The notes below the pieces were generated by a model, which was not told the DNA's origin, did not search any database, and saw only the letters and a program-made list of their open reading frames with translations. A program made the position numbers and the translations under genes. Shown here piece by piece: positions 27,888 through 47,700 of a DNA stretch of 64,000 bases (within the stretch, counting starts at the first letter, position 1; the number at the start of each line of letters is the position of its first letter). Source of the DNA: Brevibacillus panacihumi W25. GTDB lineage: Bacteria > Bacillota > Bacilli > Brevibacillales > Brevibacillaceae. The stretch is from the NCBI RefSeq assembly GCF_000503775.1, contig NZ_KI629782.1:1356045-1420044 (forward strand), given 5' to 3'.

Positions 27888-27929
27888 TCGATGTCAGACA
27901 TCGTTTTTTCTCAGGAAGGAGGAACACCC

Positions 27930-29729: not shown

Positions 29730-29748
29730 TGGAACCGGCATGTTTATT
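29717..29748 (+). terminator. Intrinsic terminator of the YheC/YheD-GNAT operon
   Basis: ACATGCCGG / CCGGCATGT, perfect 9-bp stem, then TTATT. The stem begins inside the last codons of the GNAT gene. Confidence 0.75.
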
Positions 29749-29839
29749 CCCTTTTACCTGTCGGAATTTTCTTTCTATCCTTCCTCCATGCATTAGCTTG
29801 CAATCCTTGGTAAAAAGTAATGGCAGGAGGTGGTCAATC

Positions 29840-30748
29840 ATGACCTTTCAATCTAACAACATGATGCAATCCAGCTTTCCACAATCCGCTCAATCCATGT
29901 TCCAACCTGGTTTTGCGGGAACCAATTCCCAGGAGGTGCGCTACCAAAACCAAAGCGGGTTTTCCCAGGCTTCTGCCGCACCTACATACGGTGCTTTTTC
30001 CTATGGCGGGAACACAGGCAACGCTTCGGCTCAGTCGATGTTCCAACCAGGCTTTGCGGGAACCAATGCACAAGAGGTGCAGTACCAAAATCAAACCGGG
30101 TTTTCCCAGGCTTCTGCCGCACCCGCGTTTGGCGCTTTCTCCTCTGGCGGAATCACAGGCAACGCTTCGGCTCAAGCCATGTTCCAACCAGGCTTTGCGG
30201 GAACCAACACCCAAGAGGTAAGACAGCTTAATCATGGCTATTCCCAACAGCCTTATGGCGGCTATATGCAGTCGCAAGCATCCTCTCAGCCAGCTTTTGG
30301 CGCATCGATTTTCTCCCCTGGTTTTGCAGGTACCAATGTGAGTGAAGTACAGTCCCGCAATAGCGGCGCCTACAATGCGCTCAGCAATAACCTGGGTTCT
30401 TTCCCGCAAGCAAGCATGTCCTCACAAGGGCAATTCTTCGGCGGCGGCGCAAACAGCGTATTCTCTCCTGGTTTCGCAGGAACCAATACACAGGAAGTAC
30501 GTCAGCAAAACCAAAACAGTGCTGCTTTTGCCAACAGCTTTTACCAACAACCACAGGCTCAGATGCAGCAACAATCCTACTTCAGCGGTTACCCGCAGCA
30601 AACACAAGCAACTGCTGGTCAGCTGGGATTCGGCGCACAAGCTGTCTTCTCGCCGAACTTTGCCGGAACCAATGTTCAAGAAGTACGCGCTTTGAATGCG
30701 GGACAAGCTGCTCCACATACCGGATCGATCTTCCCGGGCAGCTTCTAA
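29840..30748 (+). CDS. Six-repeat gamma-SASP-like spore protein
   Basis: A 302-residue, Gln/Ser/Ala/Gly-rich protein with no lysine-rich or membrane segments. A motif F-x-P-(G/N)-FAGTN-x-x-EV-x-x-x-N occurs six times (FAGTN at residues 25, 72, 119, 162, 212 and 274). Within the motif TNxQEVRxxNQ resembles the gamma-type small acid-soluble spore proteins, whose repeat is FASETNxQxVRxQNQ and normally occurs twice in about 80-100 residues. The Glu before Phe in the GPR protease site of gamma-SASPs is replaced by Pro-Gly. The first two units are a near-identical 141-bp DNA tandem. ATG 29840 follows GGAGGTGGTCAATC. Confidence 0.7.
   Translation: MTFQSNNMMQSSFPQSAQSMFQPGFAGTNSQEVRYQNQSGFSQASAAPTYGAFSYGGNTGNASAQSMFQPGFAGTNAQEVQYQNQTGFSQASAAPAFGAFSSGGITGNASAQAMFQPGFAGTNTQEVRQLNHGYSQQPYGGYMQSQASSQPAFGASIFSPGFAGTNVSEVQSRNSGAYNALSNNLGSFPQASMSSQGQFFGGGANSVFSPGFAGTNTQEVRQQNQNSAAFANSFYQQPQAQMQQQSYFSGYPQQTQATAGQLGFGAQAVFSPNFAGTNVQEVRALNAGQAAPHTGSIFPGSF
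29894..30176 (+). repeat. 141-bp coding tandem repeat, two units
   Basis: Two adjacent 47-codon units, QSMFQPGFAGTN... to ...TGNASA, nearly identical in DNA; a third, partial unit follows. This points to recent intragenic duplication in the gamma-SASP-like gene. Confidence 0.8.
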
Positions 30749-30776
30749 TCACTCTGCACCCGTTTGGCACAAAAAC

Positions 30777-30822
30777 AAAGAGGCCATTCCGCGGTCCTAT
30801 GACCCGGAGCGGCCTCTTTTTC
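30777..30822. terminator. Bidirectional terminator between convergent genes
   Basis: AAAGAGGCC / GGCCTCTTT with further internal pairing (GGTC/GACC) and TTTTT on the + side. It serves the gamma-SASP-like gene and the exopolysaccharide operon arriving from the other side. Confidence 0.8.
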
Positions 30823-30827
30823 CTGCA

Positions 30828-31349
30828 TCATCCCGACTTTCTCACCGTCTCGATAGCTTGATAAAAGTCATGGAGTGCCTGCAATCCTTGTTCGTCAACC
30901 GTGAAGGCAATTTCTCCAAAGCGGTAGGCATCCTGCTCTGCAATCATCCAGGCCGACTCTTCCTGCTGGAACTGCTCGTTTACACAGGCATCGGTCTCTT
31001 CCAGGCGCTCCCGTACATCCAGATGCTTCTTCCATTCAGGCTGAAAAGCTTCGTGGACCCGTGCCAGCCTTTCGTCTTTACGGGCAAGCCTGTACAAAGC
31101 AAGCTCCATTTGCAGCCAGCAAGTCGTATAGAAGTGAAATTCCAGAAAAAGGGTTTTTATTGTCTGGCGCAGCGGGACTTCATCCTGACTTTCTTGGAAT
31201 AGCTTGGCGGCAGCCCGCACCTCCGCCTTCTTTTCTTGAATCACGTCAAAATGGCTGACGGCGCCTCGGTAAAATTTCCGCACAATCTGGTACAGCATCT
31301 CTGCCGACCGGGGAGGCAATCCTTGATAGCGATTCGGCACATCCCTCAT
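30828..31349 (-). CDS. Unrecognised helical protein, 173 aa
   Basis: Not recognised. The sequence (MRDVPNRYQGLPPRSAEMLYQIVRKFYRG ... AIETVRKSG) is charged and predicted almost all-helical, with no membrane segment, signal peptide or cysteine cluster apart from two isolated Cys. ATG 31349 is nine bases after AGGAG; longer in-frame starts have none. It lies 58 bases downstream of the exopolysaccharide operon and just before its terminator, so it may be the operon's last gene. Confidence 0.6.
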   Translation of the reverse strand: MRDVPNRYQGLPPRSAEMLYQIVRKFYRGAVSHFDVIQEKKAEVRAAAKLFQESQDEVPLRQTIKTLFLEFHFYTTCWLQMELALYRLARKDERLARVHEAFQPEWKKHLDVRERLEETDACVNEQFQQEESAWMIAEQDAYRFGEIAFTVDEQGLQALHDFYQAIETVRKSG

Positions 31350-31407: not shown

Positions 31408-33105
31408 TCAGTCTTTGGCATTCTTCCAATACTCGTACGCGTGCACCGCAATCCCCTTAAAGGAGGAGTACACCCCCAGAGAGCGCGTCACCAGATCGAG
31501 CTGCCGCATCATCTCCGCCTTACCTTCTTCATAAAAGGTGACGTAATTTGCTTCACGGCTTTCCTTCATTTCAACGGCGACGATGAGATCTTTGCCAATG
31601 CTTTCCGCATATCGGATCTCGCTGTCGACCAGGCTCAGGATGCCTCCTTCCCCTTCGGCTTGATCGCGAAAGGCCATCATCGTCGTATGATCCAGCTGGC
31701 TGATCATCCAGTGGCTGAACGGCAGCTCCGGCTGACCGGGAGTAGGCGAATTGTCCAGCCAGGCGGCCAGATCTACGCTGGTTTTCAAACCTGGACTTTT
31801 CCCGGCCTCAGCGACGAACGCCTGTATATTTTCCATCCATTGGCGAAGCAATCCTTCCTTATCCATCTGCCAGATGGGCATGACATACGGCTCGATGTCC
31901 AGGTGAATGCCCGCCCACTTTTCTTCCTCAGATGCAGCCTCATTGTAGCGCTTGACCCACTGCACCAGCTTGAGAATCTTGCCTCGGCTCTCCTCCAGCG
32001 CCCAGATCGGATGGCCGCCCATCGCGTGCACCTCGATACCCGCAGCATGTGCTTCCCGATTGAATCGCTGGTACTCCTGAAAAGGTAGATTCATATCGAT
32101 GCGAATGTACAAAAGATTCACACCTTTTTCCTGTGCAAATGCGAGAATTTCCTCTCTCTCTGTCAGCAGGGTTTCCGCTCGCCAGATATAGGTGCCGATA
32201 TAGGGAGAAGGCTTTTTCGCAGGCGTTGTCTGTTCTGAGGAAAGCTCCTTCCAGTAGCGGTAGTCGTGTATCGCCGCTCCCTTGAAGGATGGATGCTGGT
32301 TCAGATTTTGCGACAGCAGGTCCAGCTGCTTTTGCATCTCAGCCGTTCCCTCTTCCGCAAAAGTCGTGTGGTCCTCGTCACCTTTTTTCAGATTGACGGC
32401 GACTAACAGATTTTTTCCCATGCGATCGCCATCCTTCATCTCGGAGTCAATCTGCTCCAGGATGCCGTTGGGACCCGTCACCTTGTCGCGATAAGCCATG
32501 AGAACAAGCGTATCGAAGCGGCTGATCATCCAGGCGGACAGCGGCATATCGCTCCCTGCTTCTGCCTTGATCTCATCGAGCCAGAAGGCGATAGCTGCGC
32601 TTGTCTCCAGTTCCGAATCTGCTTTGGCAGCTTCTACAAACACCTGGATATTGGCTTTCCACTCGCGGATGACCCGCTCTTGATCCTGTTGCCATTCAGG
32701 CAGCAAATACGGCTCAATATCGAGCTGAATCCCTTGTATGCGCTCATCCTCCTGCGCTTCCCGATTGTACTGCTTGACCCAATTCACGATTTTCAGCATA
32801 CGATCCTGATGGCTTTTCAATGCCCAGGCAGGATGTCCGGCAACCGCGTGCACCTTGATCCCATGTGCAGAGGCCTCGCGAATAAAGGAGCGGTAATAAT
32901 CGAATGGTCTGTTCATATCCATCCGTACATAGAGAATGTCGATATGGTTCTGCATGGAAAAGGCAAGAATCTCCCGCTTTTCCTCCCCGATCTTATCCGC
33001 TTGCCAGATCCAGGTGGCTTTGCTTTTCTGCTCCGCAGAGGAAAAACCGAATAAAAAGCCGATCGTGAGGCAAAGGATGCTACATGTAAATCTCTTGGCT
33101 TTCAT
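31408..33105 (-). CDS. Secreted protein with two GH18-like barrel domains
   Basis: A 565-residue exported protein: signal peptide (about 1-25, FTCSILCLTIGFLFGFSSA), then two homologous domains of about 265 residues (28-290 and 305-563), each starting TYIW/TWIW and ending YxYWK. Each has a strand-4-like motif, GIQLDIEPYLLPEW and GIHLDIEPYVMPIW, reminiscent of the catalytic D-x-E strand of family 18 glycoside hydrolases, plus MAYRDK / MAFRDQ. Chitinase, deacetylase or carbohydrate-binding roles are possible; the assignment to GH18 is from fold-like motifs only. It is nine bases after its single-domain paralog in the operon. Confidence 0.6.
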   Translation of the reverse strand: MKAKRFTCSILCLTIGFLFGFSSAEQKSKATWIWQADKIGEEKREILAFSMQNHIDILYVRMDMNRPFDYYRSFIREASAHGIKVHAVAGHPAWALKSHQDRMLKIVNWVKQYNREAQEDERIQGIQLDIEPYLLPEWQQDQERVIREWKANIQVFVEAAKADSELETSAAIAFWLDEIKAEAGSDMPLSAWMISRFDTLVLMAYRDKVTGPNGILEQIDSEMKDGDRMGKNLLVAVNLKKGDEDHTTFAEEGTAEMQKQLDLLSQNLNQHPSFKGAAIHDYRYWKELSSEQTTPAKKPSPYIGTYIWRAETLLTEREEILAFAQEKGVNLLYIRIDMNLPFQEYQRFNREAHAAGIEVHAMGGHPIWALEESRGKILKLVQWVKRYNEAASEEEKWAGIHLDIEPYVMPIWQMDKEGLLRQWMENIQAFVAEAGKSPGLKTSVDLAAWLDNSPTPGQPELPFSHWMISQLDHTTMMAFRDQAEGEGGILSLVDSEIRYAESIGKDLIVAVEMKESREANYVTFYEEGKAEMMRQLDLVTRSLGVYSSFKGIAVHAYEYWKNAKD

Positions 33106-33114
33106 TCAGTTCAG

Positions 33115-34035
33115 TTACTCCTCTCTCTGACTGACCTTCTTCCAGCTTTCGTAGTCGTGGACAGCGCTTCCTCCGAAGGCTGGATGCCGGGACAAAGCCC
33201 GGTGCAAGATCGCTAGTTGATTCGCCATTTCCTCGGTTCCCCTTTCATGAAAGCTGACATGCGGACCTTCTCCGGAATTCAGGATATTGACTCCGACGAT
33301 GACAGACCGCTGCTTTTGCTCATTCGCGTCATCCACGATCCGCTGTACGATGCTCAGGATGCCGTTGGGACCGTCCGCATAGTTGCGATAGGCCATCAGC
33401 GTTATGCTGTCCAAGCGCTGCAGCATCCAGTTGCTCAGCTTTTCGGTATCCCCTGGGACCTGCACTGAATCGATCCAGAACGGAAGGTCGGCGCTGACGA
33501 GCAGATCCGTATCCTTCTTGGTCTCGGCTACCAGGTACTCGATGTTCTCCATCCATTGCCGGACGATGTTCTCTCGGTCCTTCTCCCAATCCGGCAACAA
33601 ATACGGCTCGATATCCACATGGATTCCCTGAAAACGTTCGTTTTCTGGAGCTCGATTGTTGAACGCCTTGACCCATGCGATGAGGTTGGCGATGCTATCC
33701 CGGTTGCGGGTGAAGACCCAATGGGGATCTCCACTGAGCGCCTCGACGTCGATCCCGGCACGGCTTGCCATGCCGATAAAGCTGCGGTAAGCCTGTGGAG
33801 AAATGTCAGTTGGTTTGATCTGCAGGTAAATCCGATTGATTTGGTGCTCTTTCGCAAATGCAACGATCTCTTCCGGCTGTGCAATGATCTGTTTGGCATC
33901 CCAGATCCAAGTCGCTCTGGTCAAAGGAGGGCTCTGGTTCATCATCAATAGGGTCAGTGACAGCAAGCAAAGCAGCAGCGGCAGCCAGATCCTTTTTTTG
34001 TGCTGAAACCATTTTCCCAGCCAAGTGAGGATCAT
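33115..34035 (-). CDS. Membrane-anchored single GH18-like barrel protein
   Basis: A 306-residue paralog of the next gene's domains. An N-terminal cytoplasmic basic stretch and helix (KKRIWLPLLLCLLSLTLLMM, 13-33) make a signal anchor; the barrel follows with ATWIWDAKQI, GIHVDIEPYLLPDW near 138-151, TLMAYRNYADGPNGI and VHDYESWKK. The same acidic pair as in its paralogs is kept. ATG 34035 overlaps the glmU stop (ATGA). Probably acts outside the membrane on the product of the glycosyltransferase in this operon. Confidence 0.6.
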   Translation of the reverse strand: MILTWLGKWFQHKKRIWLPLLLCLLSLTLLMMNQSPPLTRATWIWDAKQIIAQPEEIVAFAKEHQINRIYLQIKPTDISPQAYRSFIGMASRAGIDVEALSGDPHWVFTRNRDSIANLIAWVKAFNNRAPENERFQGIHVDIEPYLLPDWEKDRENIVRQWMENIEYLVAETKKDTDLLVSADLPFWIDSVQVPGDTEKLSNWMLQRLDSITLMAYRNYADGPNGILSIVQRIVDDANEQKQRSVIVGVNILNSGEGPHVSFHERGTEEMANQLAILHRALSRHPAFGGSAVHDYESWKKVSQREE

Positions 34036-35408
34036 GGGAGCTGGATCTGCTTCCTTTTCTGTTGGTAGTTTTCCTTGTTCACCTGCCGCTCCCTGGCGAT
34101 CGCCAATGCCTCGCTCGGTACGTGATCGGTAATCGTCGATCCTGCCGCCACGTAAGCGCCTGCCCCAATCGTTACTGGCGCGATCAAATTGACATTGCAG
34201 CCGATGAAAGAATGATCCTCGATCGTCGTCTTCTGCTTGGTCGCACCGTCATAGTTTACAGAAATCGTCCCGCAGCCGATATTGACGTGGCTCCCGATCT
34301 CACTGTCTCCCAAATAGGAGAGATGGGAGACCTTGGAGTGGTCACCGAGCTTGGTTTTTTTCAACTCGACGAAGTCGCCCACCTTCGCCCCTCTTCCAAC
34401 CTCGGAGCCCGGGCGAATGTACGCATACGGGCCGATCACAGCCTTGGCGCGGATGACACTGCCCGATACGGTAGAAAACGACAGACTTACCTCATCCTCT
34501 ATCAGGCAATCATGCACCTGGGTGTGGGGGCCGATGCGACTGCCCTCACCAATGAATGTTTTGCCGCACAAAAAACTGCCGGGGTATATCACCGTGTCTT
34601 GTCCAATTTCCACGTCTGCTTCAATGTAGGTGTTGGCCGGGTCGATGATCGTGACACCGTTTCGCATGTGGCGCTCATGAATTCTTTTGCGCAGCAGGCT
34701 TTCGATATGGGCAAGCTGTATGCGGTCGTTCACTCCTGCGCCTTCTTCGGGATCTTCGCACACATACGCAGACACCGTGTTTCCCTGCTCTTGCAGGATG
34801 GCAATCACGTCCGGGAGATAATACTCCCCTTGGGCATTCCCATTTTCTACCTTTTGCAAACTTTGGTACAGCTTCCGGTTGTCAAAGCAAAAAATACCCG
34901 TGCTGATTTCACATACCTTTTTCTGCCCCAGTGTAGCGTCCTTTTCCTCGACGATTCTTCTCACATCGCCGTCTTCATCGCGGATGATCCGGCCATAACC
35001 GGTCGGATTGTCGACGATGGTGGTCAACACGGTGGCAGCCGATTGCTTCCCCAGGTGATGCTCAATCAGTTTTTCCAACGTTTCCTTGCGTACAAGCGGT
35101 GTATCTCCGTTTAGTACAATCGTCACGCCATCCTGCTCTTGCAGGATCGGCGCGCTCATCAGCACCGCGTGGGCCGTGCCAAGCTGAGCTTCTTGATATA
35201 CGAATTCGACGCGCTCCCCCAGCTGCTTTTTCACATCGTCTGCGCCGTGACCGACGACAACGACCAGATGCTTCAGGGAAAGACCCTCCAATTGATCTAC
35301 GATATGCTCGATCATCGGTTTGCCGCATATAGGGTGTACGACCTTGTGCCGTTTGGATTTCATCCGCGTTCCTTTGCCGGCAGCCAATACGACAGCATGG
35401 ACACTCAT
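34032..35408 (-). CDS. glmU: Bifunctional GlmU: GlcN-1-P acetyltransferase / UDP-GlcNAc pyrophosphorylase
   Basis: Makes UDP-GlcNAc from glucosamine 1-phosphate. The 458 residues comprise the nucleotidyltransferase (LAAGKGTRMKSKRHKV at 8-23, LNGDTPL) and the left-handed beta-helix acetyltransferase (hexapeptide repeats, RPGSEVGRGAKVGDFVELKKTKLG, and the SYLGDSEIGSHVNIGCGTISVNYDG active-site loop). Bacillales normally carry glmU beside spoVG and prs; the present copy, inside a glycosyltransferase operon, is probably a second, pathway-dedicated one. It overlaps neighbours by ATGA on both sides. Confidence 0.93.
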   Translation of the reverse strand: MSVHAVVLAAGKGTRMKSKRHKVVHPICGKPMIEHIVDQLEGLSLKHLVVVVGHGADDVKKQLGERVEFVYQEAQLGTAHAVLMSAPILQEQDGVTIVLNGDTPLVRKETLEKLIEHHLGKQSAATVLTTIVDNPTGYGRIIRDEDGDVRRIVEEKDATLGQKKVCEISTGIFCFDNRKLYQSLQKVENGNAQGEYYLPDVIAILQEQGNTVSAYVCEDPEEGAGVNDRIQLAHIESLLRKRIHERHMRNGVTIIDPANTYIEADVEIGQDTVIYPGSFLCGKTFIGEGSRIGPHTQVHDCLIEDEVSLSFSTVSGSVIRAKAVIGPYAYIRPGSEVGRGAKVGDFVELKKTKLGDHSKVSHLSYLGDSEIGSHVNIGCGTISVNYDGATKQKTTIEDHSFIGCNVNLIAPVTIGAGAYVAAGSTITDHVPSEALAIARERQVNKENYQQKRKQIQLP

Positions 35409-35611
35409 CCGATCGCCTCCTGTTGTGTTCGATTGCTGTGTGTGACCGGACCCGTATTCTCTCTTGTCTGGAAATACGGTTTCAGATCATCTGTCAATCT
35501 GTCTATAATCATGCGAGAGTTGATCTCTTTCGTCTGATTGCCAAGCTTGCAAGCCTGCAGCATGATGCGCAGCAGGGTATCCTGATTCAGATTTGGTTCC
35601 AAACTGCTCAT
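35405..35611 (-). CDS. Small unrecognised protein between glmS and glmU, 68 aa
   Basis: Not recognised. A 68-residue soluble protein, MSSLEPNLNQDTLLRIMLQACKLGN then a polar tail ending NRTQQEAIG. GAGGAGG lies eight bases before ATG 35611 and its stop overlaps the glmU start by four bases, both strong signs that it is translated. It could be a small adaptor or regulator of the precursor enzymes. Confidence 0.65.
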   Translation of the reverse strand: MSSLEPNLNQDTLLRIMLQACKLGNQTKEINSRMIIDRLTDDLKPYFQTRENTGPVTHSNRTQQEAIG

Positions 35612-35660
35612 ACGGTGTCCCTCCTCGCTTTTCACAGGTATGCTTGCAAAAGTCAGATGC

Positions 35661-37493
35661 TTACTCAACCGTGACGCTTTTGGCCAGGTTCCGCGGCCGA
35701 TCGACGTCATTGCCGAGTGATACCGACGTGTAATACGCAATCAACTGCAAGGGAATGACGCAAAGCACCGGTGCGAGCAGCGGATGGGTCGCGGGGATGA
35801 GACACACCTCGTCTACCGAACGGTGCAATTCCACATTGTCTTCCAATGCGACACCCAGCACGACGGCTCCGCGTGCCTTTACCTCCGTAATATTGCTGAC
35901 CATCTTTTCATGCAGATGCGGCTGGGTGGACAGCGCGATCACGCGTGTTCCCTCCTCGATCAGCGCCAGTGTCCCATGCTTCAGCTCTCCTGCCGGGTAC
36001 GCCTCCGAATGGATGTAGGAAATCTCCTTGAGCTTCAGAGAACCCTCCAGAGAGACGGCGTAATCGAGCCCGCGGCCGAGAAAGAACATCTGTCTCTCTT
36101 CCTTGATGGAGATGGCGAATTGCCGGATTTCTTCGGCATGGCCGAGAATCTTTTCTACCTGATCTGGCAGCTTCTGGAGCTCCTGCACCAGCGCCGCACA
36201 ATCCGATGCCTCCATGCTTTTCTTCTCCTGGGCGAAATAGATGCCCAACAGATAAAAGGCGATGAGCTGAGACGTGTAGGCTTTGGTGGAGGCGACCGCA
36301 ATCTCCGGTCCTGCCTTGGTCGTCATCACGTGGTCAGCCTCGCGTGCGATGGAGCTTCCGACAACATTGGTGATCGCCAGCACGCTGCTGCCGTTGCGTT
36401 TGGCTTCGCGCAAAGCGGCCAAGGTATCTGCTGTCTCGCCGGATTGACTGACTACAACTGTCAAAGTCTTCTGGCCAAAAAGCGGATTGCGGTAGCGAAA
36501 CTCCGAGGCGACGTCGATCTCTACCGGGATCTTTGCGAGATTTTCGATCACGTGCTTTCCGATCATTCCAGCATGATAAGCGGTGCCGCACGCCACGATA
36601 TAGATTTTTTCAATCCCTTTCACGGTCTCCGGGGATAAGTCCAGTTCCGGAAGCTTGACCATCTGCTTGGCTTCGTCGATACGGCCTGCCATCGTATGGC
36701 GCAGGGAACGCGGCTGTTCGTGGATTTCCTTGAGCATGTAGTGGTCAAAACCGTCTTTTTCCGCCTGCTCCTTGTCCCATGTGATCCGCACCTGCTCTCG
36801 TTCGATTGGCTGCAGGGTCTCGAGATCGTACAGCTCTAGTGAATCTGGGGTCAATACGGCCAGATCGCCGTCCTCCATGACATAGACATCCCGCGTGTGC
36901 TCGAGTATCGCAGGGATGTCGGAGCCAATAAACTTCTCACCCTCGCCCACGCCAATAATTAAAGGACTGGCGAAGCGGACAGCAATCAGTTTGTCCGGCT
37001 CCCCTTCACTCATAACCGCCAGCGCGTAGGCTCCGCGCAACCGAGCCGCGACCTGCTGAACGGTTTGAATGAGATCCCCTTGATCATGCTTCGCAAGGAG
37101 GTGAGCGATGACTTCTGTATCCGTCTCGGAAGTGAAGGTGACCCCTTCCTGTATGAGCTCCTGCCTGATTTCCTGTTCGTTTTCGATAATTCCGTTGTGA
37201 ACAATTGCGAACTTGCCGCGCTCATCCGTATGAGGATGCGAGTTGGCATCCGAAGGGCGGCCGTGTGTCGCCCATCTCGTGTGACCGATGCCGATCGAGC
37301 CGTGCAGACGGGCATGCTGCACCAGTCCTTCCAGGATGTCGATTCGCCCTTTCGCTTTGCGAATCGCAATCTTTGTGCCATCGTTCACGGCGATTCCGGC
37401 CGAATCATAGCCGCGGTATTCCAGCTTTCGCAGTCCGTCGATCAAGATAGGCTGCGCTTCTCTGTTGCCGATATATCCCATGATTCCACACAT
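35661..37493 (-). CDS. glmS: Glutamine-fructose-6-phosphate aminotransferase (isomerizing)
   Basis: Makes glucosamine 6-phosphate, the entry to UDP-GlcNAc. The 610 residues show the N-terminal glutaminase with Cys2 nucleophile (MCGIMGYIG), HTRWATHG and NGIIEN, then two SIS domains (CGTAYHAG, SQSGETADTLAALREAK) and the C-terminal DVDRPRNLAKSVTVE ending diagnostic of GlmS. ATG 37493 follows AAGGAGG. No glmS ribozyme was recognised upstream, where only 49 bases separate it from the dehydrogenase gene, so it seems a dedicated, constitutively translated copy. Confidence 0.95.
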   Translation of the reverse strand: MCGIMGYIGNREAQPILIDGLRKLEYRGYDSAGIAVNDGTKIAIRKAKGRIDILEGLVQHARLHGSIGIGHTRWATHGRPSDANSHPHTDERGKFAIVHNGIIENEQEIRQELIQEGVTFTSETDTEVIAHLLAKHDQGDLIQTVQQVAARLRGAYALAVMSEGEPDKLIAVRFASPLIIGVGEGEKFIGSDIPAILEHTRDVYVMEDGDLAVLTPDSLELYDLETLQPIEREQVRITWDKEQAEKDGFDHYMLKEIHEQPRSLRHTMAGRIDEAKQMVKLPELDLSPETVKGIEKIYIVACGTAYHAGMIGKHVIENLAKIPVEIDVASEFRYRNPLFGQKTLTVVVSQSGETADTLAALREAKRNGSSVLAITNVVGSSIAREADHVMTTKAGPEIAVASTKAYTSQLIAFYLLGIYFAQEKKSMEASDCAALVQELQKLPDQVEKILGHAEEIRQFAISIKEERQMFFLGRGLDYAVSLEGSLKLKEISYIHSEAYPAGELKHGTLALIEEGTRVIALSTQPHLHEKMVSNITEVKARGAVVLGVALEDNVELHRSVDEVCLIPATHPLLAPVLCVIPLQLIAYYTSVSLGNDVDRPRNLAKSVTVE

Positions 37494-37542
37494 AGTCGTT
37501 CCTCCTTCGCGTCATTCATGGATGTAGGGCAGCCGGCTCGCC

Positions 37543-38904
37543 TTACGCGAGCAGGCTGACGACTTCCTTTTTCTGCGGGATCGAGACAGCCATCCCGATC
37601 TTGTAGATATGGGAACCCTCCACACCTTCGAAGGCATTGCGCGTATCGATGACGGCGACGCCCAGATCAGCCAGCTCCCGGTAGTCGAAGCTGCCGTGAT
37701 TGGTGATCAGCACCATGCAGTCGTAAGTGCGGAACCGCTCCAGATCGTAAGCGATGGAATGAACCGATTCCCCCGCTTTATTGACAAAATGTTTGGCGTA
37801 CGGATCGTAGTAGTCCACGCTTGCCCCGTTCTTTTTATACAGCTCGTAGATCTCCAGGCCTGGCGATTCTCGCAGATCGTCCACATCCGGCTTGTACGCC
37901 ATGCCGAGAATGAGGATTTTGGAGCTGTTGATCGATTTGGCATAGAGATTCAAGACCTGTACCGTCTTGTGAAGAACGTAGTCCGGCATGCTGTCATTGA
38001 TGGATTGCGCAATATCAATAAACTTGCTGTGAAACCGAAAGCCTTTTGCCTTCCACGACAGATACATCGGGTCGAGCGGAATGCAATGACCTCCGATGCC
38101 GGGCCCCGGATAAAACGGCATGTAGCCAAAAGGCTTGGTCGAAGCCGCCTTGATTACTTCCCAGACATTGATGCCCATCTTGTCGCACATCAGCGCCATC
38201 TCATTCATAAAGGCGATATTGACGCTGCGGAAGGTATTCTCCAGCAGCTTCGACATTTCTGCCACTTTCGGCGAAGAGACCGGTATGACCGCTTGTACGA
38301 GATTTCCGTATAGTGCCATCCCCAGATCGATGCATCTTTGTGTGGTTCCCCCGATCACCTTGGGCGTATTGTGAGTGTTGAATTTCCGGTTGCCTGGGTC
38401 TACCCGCTCCGGAGAATAGCAGAGGAAGAAATCCACCCCTGCCTGAAAGCCCAATTTTTCGATCTCCCACTGAATCAGCTCTTCAGTCGTGCCCGGATAG
38501 GTGGTGCTTTCCAGCGTAATCAGCATCCCCTGCTTCATATGGATCTTCAATTGGTTTACGACATGCGTAATGTAGGAGGTGTCCGGGTCTTGATTGGGAC
38601 TCAGCGGTGTAGGGACGCAGATGCTGATCGCATCCAGCTCCGCAATGGCAGCGTAGTCTGTCGTCGGAAAAAAACGATCTGTTGCCAGACATTCCCGCAA
38701 GGTCTCATCCGAAATATCCTGGACATAGGAGACGCCCGCCTTTAGGCTCTCGACTTTTCTTGGGTCCAAGTCGATCCCGACGACGGTGTATCCGCCTTTT
38801 ATCGTTTCCACGGCAAGGGGCAGACCGACATAGCCAAGCCCGATCACCCCTACTCTTGCCGTCTTATCCGCCAATTTTTGCTGCAGTTCCTCGAATCTCC
38901 CCAT
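37543..38904 (-). CDS. UDP-N-acetylglucosamine/UDP-sugar 6-dehydrogenase (WbpA-like)
   Basis: Twice oxidises C6 of a UDP-sugar to the uronate. The 453 residues contain the NAD motif VGVIGLGYVGLPLA (18-31), the catalytic GIGGHCIPLDP (Cys274) and a C-terminal UDP-binding domain starting KILILGMAYKPDVDDLRESP. The N-terminal FEELQQKLADKTARVGV resembles Pseudomonas WbpA, the UDP-GlcNAc 6-dehydrogenase, more than the UDP-glucose enzyme. Placement next to GlmS and GlmU supports UDP-GlcNAc as substrate and UDP-GlcNAcA as product, but the sugar is an inference. Confidence 0.85.
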   Translation of the reverse strand: MGRFEELQQKLADKTARVGVIGLGYVGLPLAVETIKGGYTVVGIDLDPRKVESLKAGVSYVQDISDETLRECLATDRFFPTTDYAAIAELDAISICVPTPLSPNQDPDTSYITHVVNQLKIHMKQGMLITLESTTYPGTTEELIQWEIEKLGFQAGVDFFLCYSPERVDPGNRKFNTHNTPKVIGGTTQRCIDLGMALYGNLVQAVIPVSSPKVAEMSKLLENTFRSVNIAFMNEMALMCDKMGINVWEVIKAASTKPFGYMPFYPGPGIGGHCIPLDPMYLSWKAKGFRFHSKFIDIAQSINDSMPDYVLHKTVQVLNLYAKSINSSKILILGMAYKPDVDDLRESPGLEIYELYKKNGASVDYYDPYAKHFVNKAGESVHSIAYDLERFRTYDCMVLITNHGSFDYRELADLGVAVIDTRNAFEGVEGSHIYKIGMAVSIPQKKEVVSLLA

Positions 38905-38930
38905 ACTCGTCTCTCCCCTTCATGGTCTCT

Positions 38931-39719
38931 TTATGAAATGAGTCGCTTCACGCGTGCTGCCAGCTCTACAGGCGAAAATGGCTTGGTAATGTAGTCGGAA
39001 GCACCGAGAGCGAATGATTTTTTTACATCTTCCTCCAGCTTCTTGTCCGTCAGAACCACGATTTTGCTCGCGGGTCCTGTCTGCTGTTGCCTGATTCTCT
39101 CCATCAATTGATAGCCGTCCATGATCGGCAGGTTGAGATCGGTGATGACCAAATCCGGGAACAGCTCCTGGTATTTTTGCACCCCATCCATGCCATCCTG
39201 GGCGATCGTCACCTGGTAGCCCTTTTGCTGCAGAAATATTTGCAGGAACTCATTGACTGTCTCGTCGTGGTTGACCAACAGGATGCTTCCAGCCGTTTCC
39301 TCCCGGCCATCGAGGTGATGGAAAAACAGCTTGATCTCCCCGTAGCCGGCCAGCTTCAGGACCTCCTGAATCATTCGTTGCAGGACGTAGCTTGTCGCCT
39401 GTTTGGATTCAGTAAAGCTGGCGATTAAGAGACTGCCTGCCAGAAGCCCGCGTTCCTGCAGGATGTCCTTAACCTGCAGGGAAAAAAAGTGGGTTTCGCT
39501 GCGGTTTTGCCCCTCCAGATAGACGGCCAGCAGACGGGTGTTTTTGTCATAGGCGAGTTGCATGTGCAAGCCCATGCCTTTTTGCTGGAGAGCTTCCTCG
39601 ATGTCGCTGACCGATGCCGGGCTCAGCTGCTTGCAAGCAGCGAGTATGATGCCGCAAGAATTGTGTTCTAACCTGTACGCTCGCAGAAATTGATGAAATG
39701 CAGGTATTAGACTGTTCAT
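38931..39719 (-). CDS. Response regulator: unknown N-domain plus C-terminal receiver, no DNA-binding output
   Basis: A 262-residue protein. Residues 144-262 are a CheY-like receiver with phospho-acceptor Asp194 (VITDLNLP), Thr224 (VVLTD) and Lys246 (ITKPF); the acidic pocket is NHDE rather than the usual DDD/DDE. Residues 1-140 are an unassigned alpha/beta domain with no helix-turn-helix, in an inverted order for response regulators. It probably acts by protein contact, perhaps on the glycosyltransferase whose stop codon overlaps its start (ATGA). A degenerate GGDEF-like fold for the N-domain is possible but not demonstrable here. No histidine kinase is adjacent. Confidence 0.8.
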   Translation of the reverse strand: MNSLIPAFHQFLRAYRLEHNSCGIILAACKQLSPASVSDIEEALQQKGMGLHMQLAYDKNTRLLAVYLEGQNRSETHFFSLQVKDILQERGLLAGSLLIASFTESKQATSYVLQRMIQEVLKLAGYGEIKLFFHHLDGREETAGSILLVNHDETVNEFLQIFLQQKGYQVTIAQDGMDGVQKYQELFPDLVITDLNLPIMDGYQLMERIRQQQTGPASKIVVLTDKKLEEDVKKSFALGASDYITKPFSPVELAARVKRLIS

Positions 39720-41158
39720 CCTCTTACCTCCAGACTGGAAATCGTTTTCTTTTCCTCAGCTTTCCAGCTCGTTCGGGTCATCGTGCCCCACGAGTTGTTG
39801 TTGCGCAAATATTCGATGTGACCCAAAAACCGCCAGATGACACCGATTTGTCGGTAGCCGAAAAACATCAGAATGGTATAGAAAAGCATTTTGACGATAT
39901 CCTGAAAACGCGGATAGCGGCGAAATGCGATTTCCTCCAGCAGCAGCGCGCCAATCCCCAAGAGAAAGCCATAGAGAATGTTGAGGGCGCCATAGATCAG
40001 CAGGATATTCGCTTGCGTCATGTCCATCAGCACGTAGCCGATCAATGCCAACAGTCCTGTGATTCGAAAATAAGGATTCAAGGTCTCAAACAAAATGTTG
40101 TACGGCAGGGTGACCAGACCGAATATTTTGTACTTGGGACGAAAGACCATGTGCTGGCCGTATTCGATCATGTTTTTCAAGTTTCCGCGTCCCCATCTGC
40201 GGCGCTGGCTCCCCAGGATTTTCCACGTGTCAGGCGCTTGCGTCCAGCAGACGGCGTCGGGACAGAAAGCGACGCGATACGGAAGCTTGTTCTCGAGCAT
40301 GTATTTGTGCAGTTTGATGATGATGTTCATATCCTCTCCGGGATAGCCGCCGCGATAACCGCCCACTTTGATCACATAATCCTTGCGAAAGACACCGAAG
40401 GCGCCGGAGACGATAATCAAGCCGTTGATCGCACTCCAGCCGATTCGCCCTCCCAGGAAGGCCTTGAGGTATTCGATCGACTGAAGCATGGGCAAAAGCT
40501 TTTTCGGCAGGCGAATCTCGCTGACGATGCCATCCTCGATCTTGCAGCCGTTAGCGATGCGGATATCGCCGCCAATCGCCACGGTTTCCTCCGGATTCTC
40601 CATGTAGACGCGAGCAATGCGAATCAAGGCGTCCTTTTCCAGCAATGAATCGGCGTCGATCGAAGCGATCAGCGGGTAGTGGGACAGGTTGATTCCCGCG
40701 TTGAGCGAATCCGCCTTACCTCCGTTGTCCTTGTCGATCAGATACAGATGGGGGAAGGCCGGATTGTAGTAGACACCGCGAACCTTCTCCGTTTTCAGCA
40801 CTGGCCAGACAGCGGCGTGATGGGAGAGCTGCAGGTTGAACTCATTGATCAGCACGTTGAGCGTCTCGTCGCCAGACCCGTCATTGATGACGATCACTTC
40901 ATATTCCGGGTAGTTGAGCGACAACAGCGACCGGACGTTCTCGATAATCGTCAGCTCCTCGTTGTACGCGGGAACCAGGATTGAGATCGGCGGCACATGC
41001 GGCGAACCGGACAAGGCCTGATACCTGGAGTACAGGGAACTTTTGAGAATACCCATGATGTTCTTGAAGGAGAACATCATGATGATTAAATACAGCGAGT
41101 TGATGACGAAGACGTAATAGATGGCAAACGTCCCGTAGTATAGCAAGAAATCTCTCAT
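39716..41158 (-). CDS. Processive family 2 glycosyltransferase (poly-GlcNAc/cellulose synthase-like)
   Basis: A 480-residue membrane enzyme that probably polymerises a UDP-sugar and exports the chain. Membrane helix near 6-30, cytosolic GT2 domain with PAYNEE (63-68), NDGSGDET (92-99), DNGGKADSLNAG (144-155), the metal-binding DAD (168-170), acceptor GED (274-276) and the processivity motif QRRRW (318-322), then four or more C-terminal helices. This is the layout of PgaC/IcaA, hyaluronan and chitin-oligosaccharide synthases. ATG 41158 follows GGAGGGAGGAAGCG; an upstream extension of the frame is out-of-frame shadow of the HEAT gene. Confidence 0.88.
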   Translation of the reverse strand: MRDFLLYYGTFAIYYVFVINSLYLIIMMFSFKNIMGILKSSLYSRYQALSGSPHVPPISILVPAYNEELTIIENVRSLLSLNYPEYEVIVINDGSGDETLNVLINEFNLQLSHHAAVWPVLKTEKVRGVYYNPAFPHLYLIDKDNGGKADSLNAGINLSHYPLIASIDADSLLEKDALIRIARVYMENPEETVAIGGDIRIANGCKIEDGIVSEIRLPKKLLPMLQSIEYLKAFLGGRIGWSAINGLIIVSGAFGVFRKDYVIKVGGYRGGYPGEDMNIIIKLHKYMLENKLPYRVAFCPDAVCWTQAPDTWKILGSQRRRWGRGNLKNMIEYGQHMVFRPKYKIFGLVTLPYNILFETLNPYFRITGLLALIGYVLMDMTQANILLIYGALNILYGFLLGIGALLLEEIAFRRYPRFQDIVKMLFYTILMFFGYRQIGVIWRFLGHIEYLRNNNSWGTMTRTSWKAEEKKTISSLEVRG

Positions 41159-41175
41159 CGCTTCCTCCCTCCTGC

Positions 41176-42351
41176 CTACTTTTCCAATGCATGGGCGGTA
41201 CTGAGTGTTTTCCTGCTCCATTCTTGGTAAAAAAGCAGCTTTTGTTGGTGCGTGATCTGCTGCTCCAGATCGATGGTGGGAAATCTGCCCTTCTCCAGTT
41301 CCTTTTGGATGACCTGATTGGCCATCTCGCGAATGCGGATGTCCCTCTCTTCCTCCATGATCGAGCAAAGCGCCCGGAAGCCATCCACCTGCAATTGGGC
41401 CAGGCTGTTCATGCTGTTGCGGGCGACCCACCAATGCGGATCCTTCACCGCACGCTTCAAAAGTGGAATGTAGGTGGACAATCCCAGTTCACCGATCGCC
41501 TTCGCCATCACAGAGCGGATCTCCCAGTCAGGATGCGATAAGAACAGGCTGACATTTCGCTTCGTCAGATAACGAATATCCCGGCACAGCAGCTTTACTA
41601 CCTTGATCCGGACCTCCTTGTCTGCCGAATTCACGAGTTGGTCCAGGATCGAGTCCATGCCGGGCTGGACATGCGATGTCAGTCCAATCAGCCCGACTTT
41701 GACCAGATCGGCATCCTCCTCGCGCACCAAAGAGGCAAACAAGGGGCCGGTATCGATCTGGCTGTCGCTGAGTATATCGACGATCAGCGGCTGGCAGTTT
41801 TGGCGGTACCCCACCAGCAGCTCGACCATCTCGCGCAGATCTTTTTCCTTACGCGCGCATTTGGCCAGAGCGCGCGCGAAGATGAACATGCTGGCATCGT
41901 TATCGTCTTTTTTCATGAGCCGGATAATTCCCGGGACTGCTTGCTCCGCATGCATCATCCCGAGATTGTAGGCGGCGTCCACCCGCGACCATTTCCACCA
42001 AGAGTTCAGCCGCTTCAGATCCATTTCGACTAACCCCAGGTCATCGCAGAGATCAAGCAGTTTTTGGCGATGAACGCCGGTAAAGCGCTCCAGTAGGGAA
42101 ATCAGCTTTTTTTGGATGATCCTTTTTTCGCTGCGCGTCAGGACTCCTGCTGGCGGCTTCAGCCGTCCCTCTTCTTCCCCGTACGCCTGGATGTAGAAAA
42201 AATAGTCTTGGTATTTTTCCAGACAAACCCGCTCGCGTTTCTCAGCAGCGAGATGACGCAGTTTCAGGACAAACAGTACGAGCAGTCCCAGAACAGCTGC
42301 TCCGCTGAGGCCGTACAGCATGTACACGGCTATCGTCAGTGGTGTCTCCAC
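41176..42351 (-). CDS. Membrane-anchored HEAT-repeat protein
   Basis: A 391-residue protein with one N-terminal helix (IAVYMLYGLSGAAVLGLLVLFVL, 7-29) and a cytosolic array of helical pairs of about 35-40 residues, for example VRIKVVKLLCRDIRYL, DWEIRSVMAKAIGELGLSTYIPLLKRAVKDPHWWVARNSMNSLAQL, typical of HEAT/PBS-lyase repeats. Likely a scaffold that couples the neighbouring synthase and regulator. GTG 42351 is read as the start (MEIPL-like METPLTIAV) after a G-rich ribosome site. Operon neighbours at 17-18 bases each side. Confidence 0.75.
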   Translation of the reverse strand: METPLTIAVYMLYGLSGAAVLGLLVLFVLKLRHLAAEKRERVCLEKYQDYFFYIQAYGEEEGRLKPPAGVLTRSEKRIIQKKLISLLERFTGVHRQKLLDLCDDLGLVEMDLKRLNSWWKWSRVDAAYNLGMMHAEQAVPGIIRLMKKDDNDASMFIFARALAKCARKEKDLREMVELLVGYRQNCQPLIVDILSDSQIDTGPLFASLVREEDADLVKVGLIGLTSHVQPGMDSILDQLVNSADKEVRIKVVKLLCRDIRYLTKRNVSLFLSHPDWEIRSVMAKAIGELGLSTYIPLLKRAVKDPHWWVARNSMNSLAQLQVDGFRALCSIMEEERDIRIREMANQVIQKELEKGRFPTIDLEQQITHQQKLLFYQEWSRKTLSTAHALEK

Positions 42352-42369
42352 ATCCCCACCCCCATCCCC

Positions 42370-44607
42370 TCATGGTTTGGTCTCTTTTCGATTTGGTTCG
42401 GTCAATTCTTGAAACACCTGTTGAATCCGGGTGTAGCTCTGTTTTTTTCGTTCGTGATAATGTACTTCTTCCCATGGCTCCCACTTGTAGCGCGGCAGCT
42501 TCGTCAACGGATACGGCTTGTCCGACTCTACCGCAATCGGTGCCTGGGAAGCTGCTTGTCTTTCCACGGTCCAAGGGAAAATCCGAATGCCCTTCGTCGT
42601 CTCGGTGACAAAGGCAGCCCCCTCATCCCGATAACTCATCACCTGAAGGGAACTGGGGTCGGTAAAGCCGAGCAGCATCCACGGAATGCGCAGCTCCACG
42701 ATCTTTCCTTTCGCCTCCCAGGCTGTCAATGAGTTGTAGTCAGGACTGTCAGAGTCCGTAGTCCCTCTGCGCAGCTTGCCTGCGACGACCTCTTCCATCG
42801 GATAGTACGCTTTGCTGTCAGGCGGCTCCATCTCCATTCCCACTGCCAGCTTCCAAGGGACGAAAACACCGGAATTGTCCTGCAGCGATTCCTCCTTGAC
42901 CGGCAGCATCCGATACCTTTTGCCGTACAAACGGGTATGAAAATCATAGTTCGCAGCGATGAGAATCTCGCTTTCCTGCGCATCGCCGAGACGAACCAGC
43001 GTTTCCAGTCCTTCATCCAAGGTCTGTCCGGAAAGCTCGGGCGCTTTCCGATTCCCTCCCGGAAGCGTATCGAAGCCCAGGTAGAGCGTTTGTTTCTTAG
43101 GATCAAATTCCTCTGAAAGCTCGGCCATGACGTAAAGATAGGCTTCATCATGCGTCACCCAGAGCTCTGACAGGCCGGGCCTAGACATCTCCAGCCTTTG
43201 CTTTTGACCCTCGTCCAGCTTTTCCCAATCTGCCTTGTCGCCGTCGATTGTCAGCAAATCCTCCTTGCCCGGATGCATGCCGAGGACGCCGAACAAGGAC
43301 TCGTTGGTCAGGACATTCAGCCAGAGTGAGCGCCTGTCCTCGGGAAGCTCGAATTTCATCGTATTCCAGGTCTTCTTGAACCACTCGTCCTGCCACACGA
43401 AGAGAATGCCTCCGGCGTATCCCTCCGCATGAATCTCTCGCATCAATTGGGCGTCGATCTCACCCTGTCGCTCCTCGGTATGTCCGCCCTGGTCTCTTCC
43501 CAGCTCCCCCAGATGCGCATTGCCCCAGGAAGCCGGGACACCGAATTCCGTCACCATGATCGGCAGTCCGTCGTGATGGGCTTTCAATTTCCGCAAATAC
43601 GCCTTGTACGTATCGATTTCACCCTGGTCGTTCTTGACCTGCTTCAAATCGGAATCATAGCGAAACAGGTCCGGATAGTAGGGGTAGACGTGATAGGACG
43701 CGAAATACCCTGCCTTCCACTGGATCGGCTCGATATGCGTCGGATCGACACTCACCATGTCCTCGTGATAAATCGGCTCGCCTGGATGTTGGATGGGATC
43801 TGTCGTCACCCAGTTGGTAAACGTCATCGGATGCTGCCATCCATATTGGCTTTCTTCCTCCGCGACCAGATCCACCATCTCCGCCAACCAGGACTCGAAG
43901 GGCGATGCCTGCGGCGTGGCGCGAAAATGCTTCCCCTGATAAGGTTCCGTCGCCTGATGAAGCTTGTTGGTTTTCTGGACCATGACAGGGTCCCATTCTG
44001 TACCGATGTGCCAGCCAATGAGGTAAGGACCTGCATTGGCCCGATACTTTCCGCTCGCCTTCCCCATTTTTTCCGGAAGGGTGACAGCCCCGTATACGGC
44101 TCCGACTGCATCCCGGATCTCTTGTTGAAACTGTTCATGAATCTCCGGCAGGAACGCGTCCTGCTTTTCGATCAGCAATTCCTCCGGGCTCCAGATTCCC
44201 TGCATCAGATAGAGCGGCTCCCCCTCCTTGCGTTGATTAAACGCGACCAAGGCCTCGTAAAAGGCGGGTGGATGGATCGTATAGATCCGGATGACATTCG
44301 CCCCCATCTCATCGATCATGGAGAACCAGCGCAAATAATCTTCCTTGGTGATGGGGAGTTCCCCCGGGAAGTGTCCAGGCAGCGATGCGCCCAGATTGAT
44401 TCCTTTGGTAAAAAAGGGCTTCCAGGCTTGATTCTGGTAGACTTCGATATACTCGCCATTCGTGCGGAATTTCGTCTGCACGCCTTTCGATATTTCCATG
44501 CTTTCTACACGATTGCCACTGCCATTCCACCAGAGAGAGGTGAAAACAGCCGCGATCATGACGGCCAAAGCGGCCCATTGCCCCCGACGTCTCCTGTGCT
44601 GTCCCAA
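42370..44607 (-). CDS. Membrane-anchored glycoside hydrolase (clan A-like)
   Basis: A 745-residue protein that starts the exopolysaccharide operon. After a signal anchor (WAALAVMIAAVFTSLWW, 11-27), residues 45-430 look like a clan-A TIM barrel: NGEYIEVYQNQAWKPFFTKGINLGASLPG, NVIRIYTIHPPAFYEAL, acid/base candidate Glu204 (GWHIGTEWDP) and nucleophile candidate Glu354 (IMVTEFGVPAS). Residues 470-700 form a beta-rich accessory domain. Substrate unknown; it could trim or release the polymer outside the membrane. The TTG start (44607), ten bases after GGAGG, is the only start in an otherwise closed frame. Confidence 0.75.
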   Translation of the reverse strand: MGQHRRRRGQWAALAVMIAAVFTSLWWNGSGNRVESMEISKGVQTKFRTNGEYIEVYQNQAWKPFFTKGINLGASLPGHFPGELPITKEDYLRWFSMIDEMGANVIRIYTIHPPAFYEALVAFNQRKEGEPLYLMQGIWSPEELLIEKQDAFLPEIHEQFQQEIRDAVGAVYGAVTLPEKMGKASGKYRANAGPYLIGWHIGTEWDPVMVQKTNKLHQATEPYQGKHFRATPQASPFESWLAEMVDLVAEEESQYGWQHPMTFTNWVTTDPIQHPGEPIYHEDMVSVDPTHIEPIQWKAGYFASYHVYPYYPDLFRYDSDLKQVKNDQGEIDTYKAYLRKLKAHHDGLPIMVTEFGVPASWGNAHLGELGRDQGGHTEERQGEIDAQLMREIHAEGYAGGILFVWQDEWFKKTWNTMKFELPEDRRSLWLNVLTNESLFGVLGMHPGKEDLLTIDGDKADWEKLDEGQKQRLEMSRPGLSELWVTHDEAYLYVMAELSEEFDPKKQTLYLGFDTLPGGNRKAPELSGQTLDEGLETLVRLGDAQESEILIAANYDFHTRLYGKRYRMLPVKEESLQDNSGVFVPWKLAVGMEMEPPDSKAYYPMEEVVAGKLRRGTTDSDSPDYNSLTAWEAKGKIVELRIPWMLLGFTDPSSLQVMSYRDEGAAFVTETTKGIRIFPWTVERQAASQAPIAVESDKPYPLTKLPRYKWEPWEEVHYHERKKQSYTRIQQVFQELTEPNRKETKP

Positions 44608-44878: not shown

Positions 44879-44896
44879 CACAATTGAAAAAGGAGC

Positions 44897-44943
44897 AAAA
44901 AAGAGGCGATTCCGAAATATGAACATCTCGAAATTGCCTCTTT
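44897..44943. terminator. Bidirectional-type terminator after the DUF2935 gene
   Basis: AAAGAGGC.ATT.CGA pairs with TCG.AAT.GCCTCTTT around a 12-base loop; on the minus strand the stem is followed by TTTTTTGC. Confidence 0.8.
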
Positions 44944-44967
44944 CTTCTTTTTTTGCATGTCTGACCG

Positions 44968-45393
44968 CTATTGACTGTATAAAAGGGCCCGGGCAATGCC
45001 GATAAAATACTCCGACTCCCGGCGGATGTGGTTTAGTACGGTAATCGCAGTTGGATTATGCTTTAATGCTTCGCTTTCCGTCCCTAATTGATTTAGCAGC
45101 ATGATAAATTGTTCACTTTCTTGCAAGGCAAACTGTACCAGCTCCAGCACCTGTTCATAAAAGGCGGGTTGAAGATACGCTCCGCCCCTTACTGCTGTTT
45201 CAATATATTGTACAAATGTCGCTTGCGTACGTGACAGCTCCTGCTCCCATTCTTGCAGCGCCTGCACAAACCGCTGCTCCAGATTGGGAACGAGTGCGCG
45301 AATCACCTCTGTATGCTCGGCTTCCTGATGCTTCCAGAATTCGCCTTCATCCAAAATGCGCAGCGGCATTTGCTCTCCATAATAAAATTGCAT
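44968..45393 (-). CDS. DUF2935 helical-bundle protein, single domain
   Basis: A 141-residue all-helical protein. EGEFWKHQEAEHTEVIRALVPNLE (17-40) and HIRRESEYFIGIARALL near the end match DUF2935, whose His/Glu-rich four-helix bundles are thought to bind metal; clostridial members usually carry two such units, here there is one. Function unknown. Flanked by terminators on both sides, so monocistronic. Confidence 0.7.
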   Translation of the reverse strand: MQFYYGEQMPLRILDEGEFWKHQEAEHTEVIRALVPNLEQRFVQALQEWEQELSRTQATFVQYIETAVRGGAYLQPAFYEQVLELVQFALQESEQFIMLLNQLGTESEALKHNPTAITVLNHIRRESEYFIGIARALLYSQ

Positions 45394-47669: not shown

Positions 47670-47700
47670 AACCGTACGTGAGGTTCTCCCTCATACGGCT
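47670..47700 (-). ncRNA. Group II intron domain V
   Basis: Catalytic hairpin AGCCGTATGAGGGAG-AACCTCACGTACGGTT, with the AGC-type base triad and the GAGA-like loop. The maturase stop codon (47693-47691) falls inside it. Confidence 0.85.

Follow-up and report, generated by a model that had tools for sequence, protein, structure and literature searches.

We analyzed a 64,000-nt stretch of the Brevibacillus panacihumi W25 genome (hereafter the window; NZ_KI629782.1, positions 1356045-1420044, on contig 1 of a 5.55-Mb genome) that carries an operon, equipped with genes for its own sugar supply, whose products probably synthesize and export an amino-sugar surface polymer. Ten open reading frames (ORFs) run along the minus strand from position 44607 down to 31408. 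In the order of transcription they encode a predicted clan GH-A glycosidase (GHA), a HEAT-repeat protein (HEAT), a family 2 glycosyltransferase (GT2), a receiver protein (RR), a UDP-sugar dehydrogenase (UDH), GlmS, a 68-aa protein, GlmU, and two exported proteins, G18a and G18b. We consider it likely that they form a synthase-dependent exopolysaccharide machine, in which a PgaC-like GT2 works with a HEAT subunit and an anchored clan-A glycosidase. Its polymer would most likely be based on N-acetylglucosamine (GlcNAc), with uronate as an optional constituent.

Conservation of the operon core

Distribution of the operon was analyzed by comparative genomics. A GHA profile found at least 540 GHA relatives in named genomes, and the best 80 were taken as named loci (individual loci carry L numbers); they span Brevibacillus, Paenibacillus, Cohnella, Fontibacillus, Ammoniphilus, Pontibacillus, Gracilibacillus, Salibacterium, and other Bacilli. 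By tblastn, GHA, HEAT, and GT2 were found in all 80 loci, RR in 79, and UDH in 71; L098 lacks RR and UDH because its contig is 4.5 kb long. Accessory genes were more variable, with G18a in 65 loci, GlmS in 30, GlmU in 24, G18b in 19, and the 68-aa protein in seven. In all 30 same-family 4-kb loci compared, counting that of the window, GHA, HEAT, and GT2 were contiguous (nine further rows were left out of this comparison), and the order GHA-HEAT-GT2-RR-UDH was kept in 27 of 29 longer neighborhoods, the exceptions being L062 and L063.

In a sample of 398 genomes of the class Bacilli, GHA itself was encoded by 106 (33/145 genera), and a phylum-wide sample of 398 gave 23 (17/267 genera); at least 3319 GHA relatives were recognized among 7996 candidates scored. 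Twenty distant Bacilli loci were hand-picked from the class-sample matches, and 19.5 kb of each was fetched; GHA, HEAT, and GT2 lay together in 14. Deinococcus radiophilus and Planococcus maritimus carry the same triad on plasmids; a Paenibacillus plasmid without annotation (L211) was left out of the comparison. Co-occurrence of the neighboring genes elsewhere had been proposed as a check in a preliminary description of this DNA, and the conserved core seen in named, same-family, and distant loci supports, at the level of sequence comparison, one functional unit.

A putative PgaC-like synthase with a HEAT partner

The best NCBIfam match of the GT2 was PgaC_IcaA (130.7 bits, cut-off 422.3), followed by the XrtG-associated glycosyltransferase (127.5 bits, cut-off 364). 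The UDP-forming cellulose synthase model CelA gave 32.7 bits with a cut-off of 699.1, which does not place the protein with bcs synthases. It carries the motifs NDG, DADS, GED, and QRRRW, whose residues are conserved across the 14 rows compared; together with the family scores, they uphold the initial description of a processive GT2. A tree made by a quick method, which gave long-branch warnings, compared the window's GT2 with those of 10 of the 14 distant triads and 78 of the 80 named loci, L073 and L098 having dropped out at ORF clustering. The closest named relatives of the window's GT2 in this tree are from Brevibacillus species.

The HEAT protein has a hydrophobic segment at residues 11-29 with four lysine or arginine residues within the next ten, and these positive charges behind the membrane segment predict that the HEAT repeats are cytoplasmic. 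Pfam and NCBIfam likewise agreed with the family roles first given to the HEAT protein, GT2, receiver, nucleotide-sugar dehydrogenase, GlmS, and GlmU.

A predicted glycosidase and two exported proteins

GHA had no Pfam or NCBIfam family match. It consists of an N-terminal helix, a TIM barrel at approximately residues 60-430, and a beta-rich C-terminal part. In its AlphaFold 2 (AF2) model, E204 and E354 follow strands 4 and 7 of the barrel, the arrangement of catalytic glutamates that defines clan GH-A. We are confident of the clan-A fold predicted by the model, in which both glutamates are conserved residues, and regard E204 as the candidate acid/base and E354 as the candidate nucleophile. Foldseek searches with the model listed GH157, GH2, a GH5, a mannanase, and others, and the 50 rows shown by the VIA fold search were GH157 and GH2, with GH157 the best fold match. 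However, GH157 (LaGH157, PDB 9g4n/9fz9) shared 17% identity with GHA over the alignment, and PDB sequence searches with GHA gave no match to GH157. Fold search returned mixed lists and did not assign GHA to one family.

Several GHA relatives have unusual architectures or settings. An orphan GHA in L185 (9095-11857, minus strand) has an N-terminal part resembling what we take to be S-layer-homology repeats. In L192 (3712-13792, minus strand), two GHA-type genes and a G18-type gene adjoin HEAT and GT2, and the second of these GHAs (1041 aa) lacks the acid/base glutamate. The Deinococcus GHA (L209, 8536-10962) has N-terminal TPR repeats, and the TPR-bearing GHA relatives listed include Thermus, Gemmatimonadota, and Acidobacteria records.

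The two exported proteins had been labeled GH18-like, a label that the searches did not bear out: no GH18 Pfam model matched either of them at E 0.1, and a search of the genome with PF00704 found four places, none within the window. G18a matched no Pfam or NCBIfam family, and G18b matched solely unrelated Pfam models, all below their cut-offs. By eye, G18b contains two copies of the G18a domain; it is 42% identical to the L035 orthologue of G18a. G18a is related to PDB 10yv (E 7.8e-21 with a single sequence and 2.9e-25 with a profile), deposited as "Putative GH97 from Cellulomonas fimi." This homologue of the G18a domain differs from the operon's pair in being actinobacterial and a single 275-aa domain, and the depositors' label fixes no substrate.

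The G18a domain is fused to GHA in three loci, L062, L063, and L190. In the first two, the order HEAT-GT2-RR-UDH-GlmS-68aa-GlmU is followed by a single ORF, 1026 or 1013 aa long, in which the G18a domain and GHA are combined. The extensions at the N-terminus of distant GHAs were rejected as G18-like (profile probability 2% over 11 rows), as was a 279-aa protein of L184 (2%); one score of 100% stems from L190, where BLAST had already revealed the fusion, and is uninformative for L185.

Precursor supply and the nature of the polymer

The operon's GlmS and GlmU are second copies. Another full-length GlmS (62% identical) and another full-length GlmU (58% identical over residues 2-451) are encoded on contig 5, and the operon copies may supply UDP-GlcNAc on demand. 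A phosphomutase gene lies within the cluster in 15 of the 80 named loci; two of the 15 were scanned with NCBIfam and scored 610 and 580 bits, above the GlmM cut-off of 448. The presence of glmS, glmU, and a glmM-like gene in relatives thus suggests that the route from fructose 6-phosphate to UDP-GlcNAc gathers at the synthase, although most loci lack this route. In a separate observation, 23 of the 24 operon GlmU ORFs in the named loci (examples being those of L095 and L141) are 252-406 aa long, compared with 458 aa in the window, and in the two that were scanned the acetyltransferase part is mostly or wholly missing.

UDH scored higher with models of enzymes that act on UDP-N-acetylhexosamines (UDP-HexNAc), namely the archaeal UDP-N-acetylmannosamine dehydrogenase (265 bits), WecC (252), and TviB (211), than with AglM (155) or TuaD (143), none of them over the equivalog cut-off. 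Its PDB matches included 4r16 (8.7e-68) and Cap5O (1.7e-67). Eight named loci have the order HEAT-GT2-RR-GHA without UDH in the fetched stretch, and seven of these have GlmS. In the GT2 tree, seven of the UDH-less loci form a clade with support of 100, which L088 joins at 99 under a long-branch warning. Since this clade keeps the core and mostly GlmS, the shared donor seems to be GlcNAc, and uronate seems to be a lineage-specific trait. The precursor route first proposed for this DNA therefore stands for UDP-GlcNAc, and in part for the uronate branch, with a dehydrogenase nearest the UDP-HexNAc type and not found near eight loci.

Two other polymers were considered. The UDH-less loci, and the GT2's nearest relatives being PgaC/IcaA, would suit a homopolymer resembling poly-N-acetylglucosamine or chitin, in which case the dehydrogenase would serve another surface glycan or a side-branch. 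However, the other loci (71/80) have UDH after RR, making it steadier than GlmS or GlmU, and no PgaB/IcaB-type deacetylase family was found by Pfam in the ten proteins at E 0.1; we regard a homopolymer as rather unlikely, though a serious candidate. We give a similarly modest chance to a hyaluronan-like product, in which a single GT2 would alternate GlcNAc with glucuronate (GlcA) or N-acetylglucosaminuronate (GlcNAcA) to yield a glycosaminoglycan-like chain, edited by GHA as an anchored beta-uronidase-like enzyme. The GH2 fold matches bear on such editing, but the PDB contains many GH2 glucuronidases and a common fold proves no substrate; moreover, UDH is closer to UDP-HexNAc than to UDP-glucose dehydrogenases, and the GT2 tree is a quick one with L088 under its warning.

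Instead of making a secreted matrix polymer, the operon might serve a cell-wall or spore-coat glycan, such as a secondary cell-wall polymer. Brevibacillus and Paenibacillus are spore formers, the extracellular enzymes are anchored, and the nucleotide-sugar set would suit teichuronate. We nevertheless find such a pathway quite improbable: no lipid-carrier initiating transferase, flippase, or ligase family exceeded its cut-off among the listed matches of the ten proteins, and the triad is also found in Deinococcus, which is not known to form spores.

A degenerate receiver where some distant relatives have a GGDEF-REC protein

Alignment of 107 RR sequences (from 78 of the 80 named loci, 28 of the 29 fetched family loci, and the window; L052 was left out for its fused frame, and some species appear twice) was read with CheY D57 and D12/D13 as the reference acceptor and acidic pair. 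The acceptor position, 194, is Glu in 79 rows and Asp in 28. The first position of the acidic pair is Asp or Glu in 78 rows. The second, position 151, is occupied in 101 rows by one of the six residues most frequent there (N, P, H, Q, G, or T). Acceptor Asp and acidic pair are thus not kept together across the family. The window's RR retains D194, T224, and K246, yet has N150-H151. Because the acceptor is mostly Glu and the acidic pair is eroded, a phosphorylation-independent role is likelier, and RR is probably not phosphate-driven, across the family as a whole. Regulation by phosphorylation, as initially suggested, thus lacks family-wide support, while the window's own protein keeps the Asp.

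In seven of the 14 distant triads, a protein of 537-588 aa adjoins HEAT where RR would sit. Three of these were scanned with Pfam; all have GGDEF and REC, and one has Hpt above its cut-off. The motif GG[ED]EF occurs in five of the seven, four with RxxD nine residues ahead. L180 additionally carries a single REC and a hybrid kinase. Given a GGDEF-REC protein in the place of RR in some distant relatives, control is likely derived from cyclic di-GMP (c-di-GMP), a link that we infer for RR from gene position. In the AF2 model, the N-terminal domain of RR has the element order b-a-b-b-a-b-a, which fits that of GGDEF. A Pfam scan at relaxed thresholds, run on 14 RR rows, found no GGDEF, and structure searches returned receivers alone among the 50 rows listed, which has no bearing on the N-terminal domain.

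Proposed mechanism

The GT2 would polymerize UDP-GlcNAc, in this lineage with or beside the UDP-uronate made by the dehydrogenase, and extrude the chain via its own membrane helices. HEAT would be an obligatory, membrane-tethered cytoplasmic subunit of the synthase, the counterpart of PgaD/IcaD, BcsB, or PelD. RR, here turned into a non-cyclase where distant relatives hold a GGDEF-REC protein, may dock onto the HEAT/GT2 complex and regulate it by protein-protein contact. Anchored outside, GHA may trim or free the nascent chain, and G18a and G18b may work on the same polymer.

Several observations weigh against this mechanism. Named loci were picked by GHA, and co-occurrence is therefore conditional on GHA; in six of the 20 distant loci, GHA lacks the HEAT-GT2 pair in the fetched 19.5 kb. 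The Planococcus plasmid GHA is only 23% identical. HEAT is weakly conserved: the window's HEAT gave no tblastn match on plasmids, and the HEAT proteins of the Deinococcus and Planococcus plasmids were recognized by a Pfam HEAT match and by gene position. The GT2 scores far below the PgaC cut-off, and, by the GlmS and GlmU counts above, supply genes are missing in most loci. Half of the distant triads (7/14) are without a GGDEF-REC protein, five having shorter receiver proteins and two none, and a profile comparison of the RR N-terminal domain with GGDEF gave no significant match (probability 1%).

More tentatively, and with rather less than even confidence, we suggest a so far unrecognized cross-phylum class of polysaccharide synthases in which the GT2 depends on a membrane-tethered HEAT protein as its second subunit, which relays a GGDEF-REC signal, regularly accompanied by a clan-A glycosidase of unclassified family; in Brevibacillus and Paenibacillus the polymer would be glycosaminoglycan-like, containing GlcNAc and a uronate, possibly of the HexNAc type. 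Matrix polysaccharides of Bacillota are little known, and a core conserved in Bacilli and reaching Deinococcus points to a widespread, unnamed polymer. The proposal would assign many unannotated proteins, including a glycosidase group without a Pfam model, a role open to testing, and would be another wiring of c-di-GMP-type signals to a synthase.

Transcription unit and neighboring genes

Coordinates of the operon features are listed in Table 1. Gaps between the ten genes, in the order of transcription, are 18, 17, -4, 26, 49, 49, -4, -4, and 9 nt, in agreement with the same-strand spacing (9-49 nt or 4-nt overlaps) described earlier. An eleventh gene starts 58 nt past the tenth, so the unit is slightly bigger than ten genes. 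Its product (172 residues searched) matched no Pfam family, and a relative is placed after G18b in 14 of the 29 fetched same-family loci. Spacing, flanking hairpins, and conservation together suggest a single transcript. Sigma-70-like promoter matches were at chance level (10 observed and 10.8 expected in a pattern scan), and a terminator pattern scan gave 22 sites with 14.9 expected; both flanking hairpins are not among the sites listed. Four weak minus-strand sites of that scan lie within operon genes and, together with the differing accessory genes among loci, would fit several units that merely lie side by side. With the core in 80/80 loci, the 4-nt overlaps, and the fused ORFs, we consider such an accidental arrangement extremely improbable.

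Table 1. Features of the operon in the window
Feature	Position	Strand	Description
Upstream hairpin	44885-44960	-	Terminator-like, upstream of GHA; -26.7 kcal/mol; by eye and folding
GHA	42370..44607	-	First gene; predicted membrane-anchored clan GH-A glycosidase
HEAT	41176..42351	-	HEAT-repeat protein; Pfam HEAT_2 1e-15; single N-terminal membrane segment
GT2	39716..41158	-	PgaC/IcaA-like synthase; Pfam GT2
RR	38931..39719	-	~140-aa N-terminal domain of no assigned family and degenerate receiver; Pfam Response_reg 1.4e-26
UDH	37543..38904	-	UDP-sugar dehydrogenase, UDP-HexNAc side; TIGR03026 424 bits (cut-off 190)
GlmS	35661..37493	-	TIGR01135 826 bits (cut-off 418)
68-aa protein	35405..35611	-	Open frame; no Pfam or NCBIfam family match
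GlmU	34032..35408	-	TIGR01173 587 bits (cut-off 367)
G18a	33115..34035	-	Ninth gene; exported/anchored; DIE motif at 141-143
G18b	31408..33105	-	Tenth gene; exported; apparent tandem duplicate of the G18a domain
Gene 11	30828-31349	-	173 aa; last before hairpin; start counted from translation
Downstream hairpin	30760-30850	-	Terminator-like with U-tract, after gene 11; -38.2 kcal/mol; by eye and folding

Immediately upstream of the operon lies a DUF2935 protein gene (44968-45393, minus strand), and farther away an open frame at 47691-49034 (minus strand) resembles, by eye, a group II intron reverse transcriptase/maturase. On the other side are two adjoining YheC/YheD-type ATP-grasp proteins (26511-29240, plus strand; 286.8 and 269.7 bits) and a 339-aa protein (29729-30748, plus strand) without a Pfam match, whose repeat units read by eye roughly as FxPGFAGTNxQEVRxxN. 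On the Planococcus maritimus plasmid (L210, 4096-12450), genes annotated as polyphosphate polymerase domain, DUF4956, and CotH kinase stand directly ahead of GHA-HEAT-GT2, and a qatC defense gene is found downstream.

Comparison with known systems

No description of a HEAT-GT2 synthase was found in searches of an open-access library, a scope outside which most subscription papers and preprints fall, and within it the preliminary statement that no described system has this set of genes still stands. The Bacillus cereus Pel operon directs a Gram-positive synthase-dependent matrix polysaccharide and encodes a degenerate GGDEF c-di-GMP receptor (PMC7112168). Its gene set, pelDEADAFG, is unlike the operon described here (PMC7112168). 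The terms "HEAT repeat" and "response regulator" were not found in that article, and in passages of PMC7112168 and PMC7112194 "heat" refers to calorimetry or is absent, with no HEAT-GT2 synthase. Neither PelF nor PelG is named among the listed Pfam and NCBIfam matches of the ten proteins.

The operon resembles PgaCD/IcaAD in having a membrane GT2 whose best-scoring NCBIfam family is that of PgaC and IcaA and whose donor is likely GlcNAc. The pga and ica systems also have a small partner subunit and an extracellular carbohydrate-active enzyme. The operon differs from them in having HEAT instead of PgaD/IcaD, a clan-A glycosidase as a constant partner, and a GT2 that scores below the PgaC_IcaA cut-off.

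The streptococcal has operon comprises hasA-hasB-hasC-glmU-pgi and, like the operon described here, combines a synthase with its own UDP-sugar dehydrogenase and a GlmU paralogue. To our knowledge, it has no HEAT protein, receiver, or glycosidases. By the TuaD, WecC, and TviB scores given above, all below their cut-offs, the dehydrogenase described here is also nearer the UDP-HexNAc type.

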